Shown one piece after another: positions 12,296-56,856 of a DNA stretch of 64,000 nucleotides. The position numbers were made by a program, and so were the translations under genes. Source of the stretch: Sphingobacteriaceae bacterium (GTDB lineage Bacteria > Bacteroidota > Bacteroidia > B-17B0 > Aurantibacillaceae); assembly GCA_947480015.1 (NCBI GenBank), contig CANKBS010000020.1:1-64000 (forward strand). Direction: 5' to 3'. The notes beneath the pieces are model-generated. The model saw only the letters and a list, made by a program, of their open reading frames with translations. It searched no databases and had not been told where the DNA came from. The stretch's first letter is position 1. The number at the start of each line of letters is the position of its first letter.

Positions 12296-12522
12296 CTTGA
12301 AGGGTTCAAAGGGTTCAACCCTTCGACAGGCTCAGGGTGACGTTCAAAGTTCAAAGGTTCAAAGTTCAAAATAGTTGAAGGGGTTCAAATAGGCTCAAAG
12401 GTTCAAAGTTCAAAATAGTTCAAATAGGTTCAAAAAAGTTTACACTAGTTCAAAAATTGTTTAAACTTCTTCAAAGCGTTACTTTCTTATATGACCTTAG
12501 ATCTCTTATGTGGTTCAAAAGG
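12296..12522. repeat. Degenerate GTTCAAA-type short tandem array with embedded dispersed modules
   Basis: GTTCAAAGTTCAAAGGTTCAAAGTTCAAAATAGTT... units spaced 7-10 bp; CCCTTCGACAGGCTCAGGGTGACG at 12319-12342; TTTCTTATATGACCTTAGATCTCTTATGTGGTTC at 12483-12516. Confidence 0.88.
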
Positions 12523-40194: not shown

Positions 40195-41442
40195 ATGAAA
40201 AAAACACACGTCGTAATGGCGATAATTTTTGCTACACTTAACCTTAAGAGTCAGATTGTTTTTAATGGATCTGTCACTAAAAGTGGTATCGGAGTACCTT
40301 CATTAACATTTACTAAAACTGTTACTGCTGGCAACAATGTTTTGCTTATCGTGGGTGTAACGGTGCAAGATAAAAACATAACTAATGTTTCATTTGCCGG
40401 AACAAATTTAACCCAATTTACCCTAGTCACCCGAAACAGTATGCGCGTGGGTTTGTATTATGGGGCTATGGGAAACTTAGCAGTTTCAGTAACTTCTAAT
40501 GTGGTTGTTACCTTGGCCGCTTCCAGCGATGCGTTTGCGGGTGCGGCAGATTATTCTGGTGTATGGCAGGCCGCTCCATTTGTAAATCCAACCGTTGCGC
40601 AAGCCAAAAATACCCAACCTTCAGTTACCTTTACAAGTGCCGTTGGCCACAAAGCCATCAGTTTATTAGGTGATATTTCTGCAACTCCAATCGCTAACGG
40701 GGCCGGACAAACTCAATATTGGACGTTTACAGGTTCACATTCCAACAGGGCTTGCGAAAAAAACGGAGCGGCCTCCATAACCATGTCTCACACTTTAAGT
40801 GCCAGTGAAGATTGGGTAATGATTGGTGGTACCATGCAGGATTATGCCGTAATAACTTTGCCGATTGAATTAATTGAATTTAATGCCGAACGAACGAGCC
40901 ATTCGGAGGTGAGTTTAAAATGGTGTACGGCATCGGAACTTAATAACGATTATTTTAGTCTTGAAAGAAGCCTGGACGGATTTGAATGGAAAGAAGTGGC
41001 AAAAATAATGGGCGCTGGAACATGCTCTGTTCAGAAAAAATACGTGTATGTCGATAAACTTGAATTCGAGGTGCTAACCAGGAGTGAAGAAGCGCAATTA
41101 ATTTATTACCGACTAACGCAGGTGGATTTTGATGGCACTATGAAAGCCTTTGATATAATATATGTTGAACCTTATGAAACTGATAAAACCGAATTGATGA
41201 TTTTTCCTAATCCCACTTCAGGTGATAAGGTGAATTTGCAGATTGAACTTAAAAATCCGATTCCAATGGCTAAGCTCCAAGTTATCTCAAGTCAAGGGCA
41301 AGTGGTTTACAGCTCCACACAAGCGCTAATAAAAGGGACTAATCATTTTCAACTTAATTACAAATTCGAAAAGGGAGTTTATTTTACCATGCTTTTTTCG
41401 GGCAATACGCTTTTAGCTTATAAAAAGTTAGTTATAAAATAG
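40195..41442 (+). CDS. T9SS type A sorting domain-containing protein
   Basis: Signal peptide; MIFPNPTSGDKVNLQIEL...LQVISSQGQVVYS...KGVYFTMLFSG. Confidence 0.87.
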   Translation: MKKTHVVMAIIFATLNLKSQIVFNGSVTKSGIGVPSLTFTKTVTAGNNVLLIVGVTVQDKNITNVSFAGTNLTQFTLVTRNSMRVGLYYGAMGNLAVSVTSNVVVTLAASSDAFAGAADYSGVWQAAPFVNPTVAQAKNTQPSVTFTSAVGHKAISLLGDISATPIANGAGQTQYWTFTGSHSNRACEKNGAASITMSHTLSASEDWVMIGGTMQDYAVITLPIELIEFNAERTSHSEVSLKWCTASELNNDYFSLERSLDGFEWKEVAKIMGAGTCSVQKKYVYVDKLEFEVLTRSEEAQLIYYRLTQVDFDGTMKAFDIIYVEPYETDKTELMIFPNPTSGDKVNLQIELKNPIPMAKLQVISSQGQVVYSSTQALIKGTNHFQLNYKFEKGVYFTMLFSGNTLLAYKKLVIK

Positions 41443-41572
41443 TATCAGTCATATAAAATGTTTTGAAAATTTTTGATGTTTGGAAGTACTAACTTGCTCT
41501 AATCCGGCCGAACATTTGGAGGAATAACACAACAAAATCTGGTTTCTTAGCGTTCTTCTGATTAGAAACGCA

Positions 41573-43263: not shown

Positions 43264-43325
43264 GTTAACCTTAACCTTAACCTTAACCTTAACCTATACC
43301 TTAACCTTAACAACCTATACCTTTG
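43264..43325. repeat. Hexameric tandem repeat (TTAACC / GGTTAA)
   Basis: (TTAACC)n with TATACC variants. Confidence 0.92.
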
Positions 43326-43371
43326 CCTCAATCTGTTACTTGGACGCCCAATACTTAACGCACATCACTAA

Positions 43372-43420
43372 CCTTCAATCTTTAATCTGAAATTTGCAAT
43401 CTGTAATTTTTAATCTTTAA
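43372..43420. repeat. Degenerate heptamer array starting at a stop codon
   Basis: Minus strand: ATTAAAG ATTAAAA ATTACAG ATTGCAA ATTTCAG ATTAAAG ATTGAAG. Confidence 0.85.
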
Positions 43421-44535
43421 TTATACGTAAAGTCATACCTGTATTCCTGTGTCTGGGCCGATCTTCCGAATGCCTCATTAGCAGGCTGAATGTTGCGTGT
43501 TTTTATAATTAAACCTTTTTCGTTATACCAAAACTGTTCGGTAGAATTTAAATTACCACCATTAATCTGTTCAGTTATCTGATTTTTTTCGTTGTACTTA
43601 AATTTGTAATTACTTCCGTAAAAATCTTTTTCTATAAGTCGACCTTTCACATCATAGGTATATTTAGAATCGGCTTCCTTTTCTCCTTTTACCGTGCCGG
43701 TCAATACCGCTTTTAAAAACAAAGGTGAAAAAACATAGTAGTTAAAATCTTCGGGATGTTTTTGCATAAAGGCCATGTAAGCATTTTCGTAATTCATTTT
43801 TCCGGATGCTATGGTGCGGCCCTTGGCATCTGTTTGTGTATAATAGGATTCAATTTTATCGGCTATTTCAATACGACCATTTACCTTGTAAGTAATTTCA
43901 TCTTGATAAAAACAATTATTCTTTACATATGTGCGCTCCACTGTTTTGTTGCCCTGTTTGCGGCCTTTTTCATCTATATCTTCCGGACGATAGGTATAAG
44001 TGATGTAATAATTGTAAATACCCGAAGTGCTGTCTAGGCCGGTAATGGTTTCATACACACTGTCGCCAAGGTATTTATAGGTCACCATTCTGGTTTTATC
44101 TTTTTCTTCACTTAAAACCTTTGTTTCCGATTCGGTGTGTACCACTAATTTTCCATCTTGATAATTACCGTTTTCCTCTTTCAGTAAATAACCTTTATCA
44201 TTAAAAGTAATTGAAGTCCAGGCTTCAATTTTACTGGTATCCTTATCATCAAAACTAATGCGTTTCGTAACCAAACCTTTTGCATTGTATTCGAATTTCA
44301 TGCGATGCCCCGAATTGTTAAAGGTTTCAATCACACGACCGTCTTTATTAAAACAATAGCGCGAAACGGAATTGTAAAGCAAATTGGTTTCAGTAATGGC
44401 ATTAACGCGATTAAGCTTAACTAACGCACGTAAAGTAGTATCCTCATAATAAGTCCCCAATCCTTCAAATTGCGCCATTAATGAACAAAAGTTGATGATG
44501 GTGAGTGTAATAAATATTATATTTTTATTTTTCAT
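43417..44535 (-). CDS. Secreted protein with YD/RHS-like short repeats (paralog of 44690-45832)
   Basis: Signal peptide; DVKGRLIEKDFYGSNYKFKYNEKNQITEQ, YNEKGLIIKTRN repeats. Confidence 0.75.
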   Translation of the reverse strand: MKNKNIIFITLTIINFCSLMAQFEGLGTYYEDTTLRALVKLNRVNAITETNLLYNSVSRYCFNKDGRVIETFNNSGHRMKFEYNAKGLVTKRISFDDKDTSKIEAWTSITFNDKGYLLKEENGNYQDGKLVVHTESETKVLSEEKDKTRMVTYKYLGDSVYETITGLDSTSGIYNYYITYTYRPEDIDEKGRKQGNKTVERTYVKNNCFYQDEITYKVNGRIEIADKIESYYTQTDAKGRTIASGKMNYENAYMAFMQKHPEDFNYYVFSPLFLKAVLTGTVKGEKEADSKYTYDVKGRLIEKDFYGSNYKFKYNEKNQITEQINGGNLNSTEQFWYNEKGLIIKTRNIQPANEAFGRSAQTQEYRYDFTYN

Positions 44536-44694
44536 TTCTCTAATAATCCCTAATCTTTAAGTTCTAATCTTTAATCTTTAATCTTCAATCTTTAATCTTC
44601 AATCTTCAATCTTTAATCTTCAATCTTTAATTTTCAATCTTTAATTTTCAATCTTTAATTTTCAATCTTTAATTTTCAATCTTTAATCTTTAAT
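44536..44694. repeat. Heptameric tandem array (ATTAAAG / ATTGAAR on the minus strand) spanning two paralogous genes' intergenic gap
   Basis: About 20 heptamer units from the stop codon of one gene to just before the next ATG. Confidence 0.95.
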
Positions 44695-45832
44695 CCCTAT
44701 AGCTGTATACAAAAGTACTTTCCTGCTTTGTTACCTGTGCATTCTCCGACAGCGGATCAAGGCTAGTACTTTGTGTTTTGCTAATCAAGCCTTTTTCATT
44801 GTACCAATACAACTGTTTAGTGCTTTGATTTTCTTTGTTCTCACCAAACTGTTCAACAAGCTGGCCTTTTTCATTGTATTTCATTGTATAACAATAAACA
44901 AACAAATCTTTTTCAATCAGGCGACCGGCAGCATCGTAAGCGTTTTTAAATTCCGGGTTTTTTACGCCCTGTACCTTGCCTTCCAGCAAGGCTTTAAGAA
45001 ACACGGGAGCATAGAAATTGGGATTAAAATCTTCGGGATGCTCCTGCATAAAATCCATATACACATCGTCGTAATTAATTTCGCCCACTTCCAGTAGTCT
45101 TCCTTTTACATCCAATTGTATGTATTGCGTTTTAATCTTATTCAGAACCTCGCTTTTACCAAACACCTGATAAGTTAAGACATCATCATAAGTGCAAAAA
45201 TCTTTGGTATAACTTCGTGCGACTGTTTTAACGCCTGCTCTTCTGCCTTTTTCATCCACATCACCCGGTCTGTACTCATAACTCACATAAAATTTTTGTT
45301 TACCCGAGGTGCTATCATGTCCGTAAATGGTGCTGTGGAATTTATTATCCTCATAGCGTTTACGTACAATTCTATACACACCTTTGGCTGTTTTGCTATA
45401 AGTGGATTCGAAGGTTTTACGCATTTCCATTTTTCCGTTTATGTCAACATTTCTTTCTTCCTTCAGTAAGTGATTTTCAACATCCCAGGTCCATATTTTT
45501 ATACTCTCAATCTTGCTGGTGTCTTGACTGTCATAACGAATTGTTTTTGTCCAGCTGCCAATTTTATTATAATAAAACTTGTTACGATTAAAGCCATTAC
45601 CATACACCATGTTGAACTCTGTCACCCTGCCATTCGCATCAAAAAAATACGTTCCGTTGTATTTACTTATACTGTCTACTTTTATATACTCGCTCACAGT
45701 AACAATACGATTAGCTTTAACCTGATTGCGCAGGATAGTATCGTACATAAAGCTACTTATGCCGTCAAATTGCGCTTTGTAAGCGAGCACGCAAAATAAA
45801 ACGCTAACAATAAAGAGAAATTTCTTATTCAA
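44690..45832 (-). CDS. Secreted protein with YD/RHS-like short repeats (paralog of 43417-44535)
   Basis: MNKKFLFIVSVLFCVLAYKAQFDGISSFMYDTILRNQVKANRI parallels MAQFEGLGTYYEDTTLRALVKLNRV of the neighbour; YNEKGLISKTQS. Confidence 0.75.
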   Translation of the reverse strand: MNKKFLFIVSVLFCVLAYKAQFDGISSFMYDTILRNQVKANRIVTVSEYIKVDSISKYNGTYFFDANGRVTEFNMVYGNGFNRNKFYYNKIGSWTKTIRYDSQDTSKIESIKIWTWDVENHLLKEERNVDINGKMEMRKTFESTYSKTAKGVYRIVRKRYEDNKFHSTIYGHDSTSGKQKFYVSYEYRPGDVDEKGRRAGVKTVARSYTKDFCTYDDVLTYQVFGKSEVLNKIKTQYIQLDVKGRLLEVGEINYDDVYMDFMQEHPEDFNPNFYAPVFLKALLEGKVQGVKNPEFKNAYDAAGRLIEKDLFVYCYTMKYNEKGQLVEQFGENKENQSTKQLYWYNEKGLISKTQSTSLDPLSENAQVTKQESTFVYSYRD

Positions 45833-46747: not shown

Positions 46748-46855
46748 GGTTTGGGGCTTAACATGTTTATTAAAATTACAAAAATTAAATGGTGTTTTTA
46801 CTCATAAATGAAATTTAACATACAAGTAGAGTCAATTCAACTTTACAAACCTTAA

Positions 46856-47280
46856 ACTTTTAAACCCCTTTGAATCTTTTGAACTCCATTGAACCTTTTG
46901 AACCTTTTGAACTTTTGAACTATTTTGAACTTCCTTGAACCTTTGAACCATTTTAAACTTTGAACGTCACCCTGAGCCTGCCGAAAGGTTGAACCATTTG
47001 AACCTTTGAACCCTTTGAACCACATAAGGCACATAAGGTCATATAAGAAGGAGGTTCATTCAAAAAGTTTGAACACCAGAACCCTTAAAGCATTTTCAAC
47101 TTTTAAGGTCACCCTGAGCAAGTTTATGCTGAGCCAGTCGAAGCATAGAAGGGTTGAACTTTTGACCGAAGAACCAACTTGAATCATTAAAAACTAAGTA
47201 CTAGAAACTAAACATTAAACACTATACATTAAACACTAAGCAAAAAAACTAAATACTAAAACAAAGCATCTACTAAACCA
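46856..47280. repeat. Composite short-repeat region: GTTCAAA-type and TTTAGTG-type arrays (minus-strand sense) with dispersed modules
   Basis: TTTGAAC units 46856-47020; GTCACCCTGAGCCTGCCGAAAGG 46966-46988; CACATAAGG units 47021-47050; CCCTGAGCAAGTTTATGCTGAG 47112-47133; AACACTA/ACATTAA units 47190-47275. Confidence 0.9.
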
Positions 47281-56740: not shown

Positions 56741-56815
56741 AGAACCAAGAACCAAGAACCAAGAACCAAGAGCCAAGAACCAAGAGCCAAGATTCAAGAG
56801 CCAAGATTCAGGAGC
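56741..56815. repeat. Heptameric tandem array (ARCCAAG) between atpD and atpC
   Basis: AACCAAG x4, AGCCAAG, AACCAAG, AGCCAAG, ATTCAAG, AGCCAAG, ATTCAGG. Confidence 0.95.
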
Positions 56816-56856
56816 ATTTATCTTGAATTTTCTTCTTACTCTAAAAAACAATTGAT

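Follow-up and report, generated by a model that had tools for sequence, protein, structure and literature searches.

A stop-anchored heptamer array between two paralogous genes looks like fast-changing gene-end repeat DNA

In the window analyzed here (the whole stretch of 64,000 nucleotides), two similar genes on the minus strand are separated by a tandem heptamer array that runs from the stop codon of the first to just before the start codon of the second (Table 1). This arrangement raises the question of whether the array acts on the second gene, as the initial annotation of this DNA had supposed, or belongs to the end of the first. That both genes are paralogs, as stated there, is borne out by an identity of 41% between the two proteins over 378 aligned positions (E 3e-92) and by Pfam RHS_repeat matches, which are weak, being one of them above the gathering score and the other below.

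Table 1. Coordinates of the array, the genes at its sides and the repeats that follow them in the window.
Feature	Position	Strand	Basis and remarks
Heptamer array, 21 tandem units	44548..44694	(-)	TRF, BLAST and exact parse
Upstream paralog, RHS-repeat-like, 380 aa	44690..45832	(-)	ORF list, Pfam; TAA stop from the array
Downstream paralog, RHS-repeat-like, 372 aa	43417..44535	(-)	ORF list, Pfam; ATG 12 bp past the array
Second, degenerate array of ATTAAAG type	43369..43422	(-)	BLAST E 8.7e-11; begins at the stop codon of the downstream paralog, direct orientation
GGTTAA hexamer array	43265..43311	(-)	TRF score 80; further along the 3' flank of the downstream paralog

An exact parse of the minus strand gives 21 unbroken heptamers from 44694 down to 44548, a count that is read from a draft assembly and may be misestimated. 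The units are ATTAAAG (ten), ATTGAAA (four), ATTGAAG (four) and one each of ATTAGAA, CTTAAAG and ATTAGGG. As previously proposed, the array begins inside the upstream stop codon, because its first unit shares bases with that codon (GAT TAA AG) and provides the TAA. At the other side, 12 bp of non-repeat sequence separate the last unit from the ATG at 44535. Then, of the earlier description of twenty units filling the whole gap, the stop-to-start array is real, whereas the units are 21 and a short tail is left over. A TRF run on the interval, also suggested in the initial annotation, places a 14-mer of 10.3 copies, equivalent to two heptamers, at 44544/44552-44695 with a score of 197; second-order Markov simulations of the window (50 in all) reached a top score of 71, with a median of 49, which puts the array among long simple sequence repeats of the heptamer class. 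Moreover, it contains a 14-bp higher-order repeat, (ATTGAAA ATTAAAG)x4, which in the sequence points to recent slippage.

The array is non-coding, as had been claimed, because stop codons are present in every frame, being 7/7/7 in the sense frames and 5/4/4 in the antisense ones. Its sense strand holds a single C in 147 bases, and RNA of the gap is less folded than dinucleotide shuffles of it (z +2.3). No inverted copy of the array exists in the gap, the ORF list shows no ORF there, and a terminator scan finds no terminator-like site on its minus strand. Also, a sigma-70-like scan returns fewer promoter-like sites than shuffles, and the Bacteroidota -7 motif TANNTTTG occurs 95 times in the window, against 94.9 expected by chance; the one at 44710-44717 on the minus strand is likewise at chance level. 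A search of the window with Rfam gives one tRNA and no other match.

Near the gap, the degenerate array that follows the downstream paralog was considered as a partner of the first one, which would make the latter the upstream arm of an inverted pair around the gene at 43417; this is ruled out by its direct orientation. The hexamer array listed after it is one of the repeats often found behind arrays of the ATTAAAG type. Other short-period intergenic arrays with different words (TTTGAAC at 7-10 spacing, ACTAAAC) are seen in the window at 12342-12475, 46855-47022 and 47185-47261, and the window holds more arrays than most of 20 sampled stretches of the genome.

The array is not a unique feature of this gene pair. 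In the genome of the window (G000; 3.77 Mb in 66 contigs), 23 BLAST matches are found including the array itself, that is, 22 further sites, and the surroundings of all of them were inspected. Gaps between convergent genes hold 13 of the 23, although such gaps account for only about 21% of intergenic sequence when 464 kb are sampled (the window plus 20 stretches picked without regard to arrays). Between convergent genes there is no downstream start to control, and therefore these 13 arrays are not leaders. What many sites have in common is the preceding stop codon: the array starts at most 10 nt from where a sense stop codon ends in 12 of the 23 cases and at most 20 nt from it in 15, whereas random placement within intergenic space (2000 trials) gives a mean of 1.0 and a maximum of 6 for the first distance and a mean of 2.1 and a maximum of 8 for the second; in these counts genes are defined by a simple ORF rule, and several of the tests were designed after part of the data had been viewed. 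This anchoring, which the initial annotation had overlooked, makes the array primarily a feature of 3' flanks.

Seven arrays lie away from any sense stop. Several genes of G000 take their stop from the array itself, as GAT TAA or GAT TGA. The coincidence is in part to be expected, because any gene that such an array invades will terminate there, given its stops in every frame. Stops fill all frames of the antisense strand as well, and the 3' end of the array comes within 10 nt of a stop of opposite orientation in only 1 of 23 cases. This count is not a clean test of orientation, because an array between convergent genes is always in sense with one of its two neighbors. Further repeats are often found on the 3' side of the ATTAAAG units, and their succession is recurrent: first GGTTGA/GGCTAA hexamers, then CAAGAAC heptamers and then ACTAAAA heptamers. 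For example, on contig C5 (L058, about 41090-41500) a composite of GATTGCAG, GGTTGA/GGCTAA, CAAGAAC and ACTAAAA is present in approximately four tandem copies and finishes at a terminator-like hairpin.

Among relatives, for which each species is represented by a single genome, often a draft in which tandem arrays are liable to misassembly, the array does not follow the genes. In 60 genomes, relatives of the paralog outside G000 occur only in G009, G010 and G051, and the tandem pair only in G009, where the gap is 37 bp long and the array is absent. Gene for gene, the identities between G000 and G009 are 36.5% and 38.1%, above the 30.7% and 34.2% of the cross pairs. Together with the array-free gap, these values suggest that the gene pair probably predates the array, or else that G009 lost it.

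These observations bear on the proposal that the array forms the 5' leader of the downstream paralog, whose translation or transcript level would be set by the number of units. The first part stands conditionally, since the array is necessarily a leader if both genes share a transcript, and no terminator-like site interrupts the minus strand of the gap. Tuning by unit number is not supported by the 22 other copies, by the 13 convergent sites or by the pair in G009. The position from stop to ATG would suit such a role, the 7-bp period and the 14-bp higher-order repeat suggest that unit number can change, and precedents exist in the related TAACTGA repeats upstream of starts and in the AGAT repeats in the leader of Moraxella catarrhalis uspA2, which affect expression (PMC4679880). 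However, most sister arrays are not leaders, the only comparable pair lacks the array and no Bacteroidota -7 promoter motif rises above chance, so that an expression tuner seems quite unlikely.

A further possibility is an effect on the preceding gene: poor in C, lacking structure and carrying stops in all three frames, the array could terminate translation and influence how the upstream mRNA ends or how stable it is. Sense orientation, stop anchoring, convergent bias and the 7/7/7 sense stops would all agree with this. On the other hand, the antisense strand likewise has stops in all frames, there is no hairpin, most genes do without an array, and arrays are not conserved at orthologous 3' ends: after rsgA, an array of the ATTAAAG type is present only in G000 among twelve genomes inspected. 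A functional element of the 3' end is thus very improbable. At that same place, G012 and G061 carry a different intergenic repeat, GTCATCCCGAGGAACGAGGGATC (L148 and L152), so the convergent gap after rsgA acquires different repeats across species.

The account that we prefer, with slightly better than even confidence, is that the array is a lineage-specific, stop-anchored copy of a dispersed heptamer family, expanded by 7- and 14-bp slippage and mostly passive. Because it is one of about two dozen copies, most of which start at the preceding stop codon, it looks like fast-changing gene-end repeat DNA rather than a dedicated switch for the next gene. According to this account, G000 would accumulate dispersed heptamer arrays at gene ends, and the present one, which is tied to the stop of the gene before it and runs in the sense orientation of that gene, would have grown by slippage or unequal exchange in steps of 7 and 14 bp. 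If the two genes are co-transcribed, the array would serve just as a spacer rich in A and G, devoid of structure and of any dedicated regulatory function, which gives the upstream gene its stop and would keep the downstream start site open. Also, it would resemble the stop-proximal arm of junction elements found in the genus, minus their complementary start-proximal arm.

Pattern searches in 40 members show that ATTAAAG-like and ACTAAAA-like arrays occur elsewhere in the genus, the ATTAAAG type being far commoner in G000. In relatives, the ATTAAAG-like arrays take the form of sense arms near a stop, of inverse arms near an ATG, or of hairpins that combine the two. A close analogue of the array is found in G014 (L012), where a co-directional gap of 74 nt is filled with a sense, unstructured array.

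Two gene junctions illustrate the variety of these elements. In the window, a CAAGAAC array begins in the atpD stop codon, in the gap between atpD and atpC (56741-56856). Most genus members examined have at this junction (L248-L277) a hairpin with complementary arms, yet its sequence is different altogether from one species to the next, as in G001 (AGTCAATAGTC / GACTATTGACT), G011 (CGGGTTTCGCGTTTCGGG / ACTCGAAACACGAAA) and G041 (GATTAAAG / CTTTAATC); in some members the gap is merely 2-29 bp. Among the 20 automatically delimited gaps of at least 20 nt, 65% fold at z below -2, and matched halves out-pair mismatched ones (p 5e-5, n=14). Heptamer runs of the GATTAAAG type were also seen in 17 stretches of IMG/VR contigs (L115-L131). 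At the junction of pdhA and pdhC (L132-L143) the genomes compared show a PF05635 ORF with arms (G000, G012, G016 and G061), a broken ORF relic with arms (G001), a hairpin alone (G006 and G011), a single arm (G007) or nothing notable (G004 and G046). Judged from the sequences, this junction is a hot spot with turnover.

The PF05635 ORF of this last junction connects the array with a wider group of cassettes. One of the arrays of the G000 set, on contig C18, has pdhA on one side and, on the other, a PF05635 gene (23S_rRNA_IVP, S23 four-helix bundle), whose protein has 2rld as its only solved relative by sequence (E 3e-23). G000 has this gene (L157) and another on C8 (L156), with CAAGA repeats upstream and TCTTG repeats downstream, whereas a match on C44 falls below the cut-off; there are no others. 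In the genus, PF05635 is found in 32 of 40 genomes, and its genes lie between two co-directional genes in 65 of 69 contexts, none of the 69 being a convergent gap. These loci (L156-L227; for example L183, L170, L184, L164 and L169) sit within core operons and have complementary repeat arms. The flanks are repeat-like in 44% of cases, against 6% of control gaps. Moreover, when true intergenic arms are taken and genes with co-directional neighbors serve as controls, the two sides of the gene, ahead of its start codon and behind its stop codon, are complementary to each other with a mean z of -3.5 (n=49), against -0.2 in the controls (n=108; Mann-Whitney p 3e-18). Pairing is also stronger in matched arms than when arms are swapped between loci (p 5e-5, with fixed 100-nt flanks that include neighboring genes). 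In their sequence features, these ORFs with complementary arms look like intervening sequences of mRNAs, not of rRNA. In the literature searched, which includes few subscription journals and so is no proof of novelty, no paper was found to describe cassettes of this kind, with PF05635 and repeat arms, between the genes of operons.

It could be argued that the array is a solo relic of such a cassette, that is, of a two-armed hairpin with or without the PF05635 ORF, reduced to its stop-proximal arm and then expanded. This would agree with the various states at the pdhA-pdhC junction, with the fact that the upstream arm of the pdh cassette of G000 (C18:7360-7407) is itself a BLAST match of the array, and with the location that both share, between co-directional genes and starting at the upstream stop. 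However, the gap retains neither a second arm nor an ORF, in G009, the only relative possessing the pair, the gap is small and free of repeats, and most sister arrays are in convergent gaps, where no PF05635 cassette is seen, making this history of the array unlikely. A broader version takes the array as the surviving arm of genus-wide elements between operon genes, similar to intervening sequences, which would be repeat-built RNA hairpins whose arms remain complementary despite sequence turnover, some carrying an ORF of the S23/Avd fold (PF05635) and possibly processed by RNase III like the intervening sequences of rRNA. This version is also improbable, although a little less so. CAAGA words are more frequent in the cassette arms of other genomes than in control gaps (15 of 67 against 9 of 194; p 7e-5, post hoc), whereas the 7-mers shared between the lone arrays of G000 and the PF05635-cassette arms of other genomes are not significant (p 0.26). 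Then, a relationship between lone arrays and two-armed elements is plausible from their layout, the general shared 7-mer test having failed.

As the array illustrates, a heptamer run in a leader can be a stop-anchored repeat of a gene end, which advises caution against reading all leader repeats as tuning or phase variation. Furthermore, the PF05635 ORFs with complementary arms and the atpD-atpC hairpins suggest that elements of the intervening-sequence kind exist beyond rRNA, and the cassettes between operon genes would be a place to seek the function of S23/Avd-like proteins.

Among known systems, the closest in form are the TAACTGA heptamer direct repeats of Beggiatoaceae, cyanobacteria and five Bacteroidetes (MacGregor 2015, PMC4679880). 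In one genome these lie mostly just upstream of start codons, close relatives of two of the Bacteroidetes have repeat-free gaps, and roles in translation or rearrangement were proposed (PMC4679880). Both cases share intergenic tandem heptamers with many sets per genome, long arrays in some Bacteroidetes and absence from the same gap in close relatives, and one TAACTGA set also lies right after a stop codon. However, the unit here is ATTAAAG / ATTGAAR instead of TAACTGA, the G000 set is stop-anchored and enriched between convergent genes and not just upstream of starts (this array ending 12 bp before an ATG), and several repeat classes follow the G000 arrays in recurrent order. Cyanobacterial STRR heptanucleotide repeats are also intergenic tandem heptamers, with different words and in a different lineage. 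For long simple sequence repeats with units of 5-11 nt, heptamers are the commonest class in most genomes surveyed and polymerase slippage was proposed, according to the account of Mrazek et al. (2007) given in PMC4679880; the G000 arrays differ from this class in being a dispersed, word-sharing family with a fixed relation to gene ends.

Finally, the intervening sequences of rRNA have complementary borders, some of them with an S23 ORF, and are cut by RNase III, as in the Coxiella element (PMC4990558), and PF05635 resembles the Avd protein of diversity-generating retroelements (PMC10053308). The array itself shows neither stem-forming complementary borders (z +2.3) nor an S23/PF05635 ORF, and lies between protein genes rather than in an rRNA gene. 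Its sister elements in the genus do have complementary borders around a PF05635 ORF, and stem-loops devoid of the ORF occur too, whereas they differ from the rRNA sequences in lying between protein genes and in having arms made of repeat arrays.
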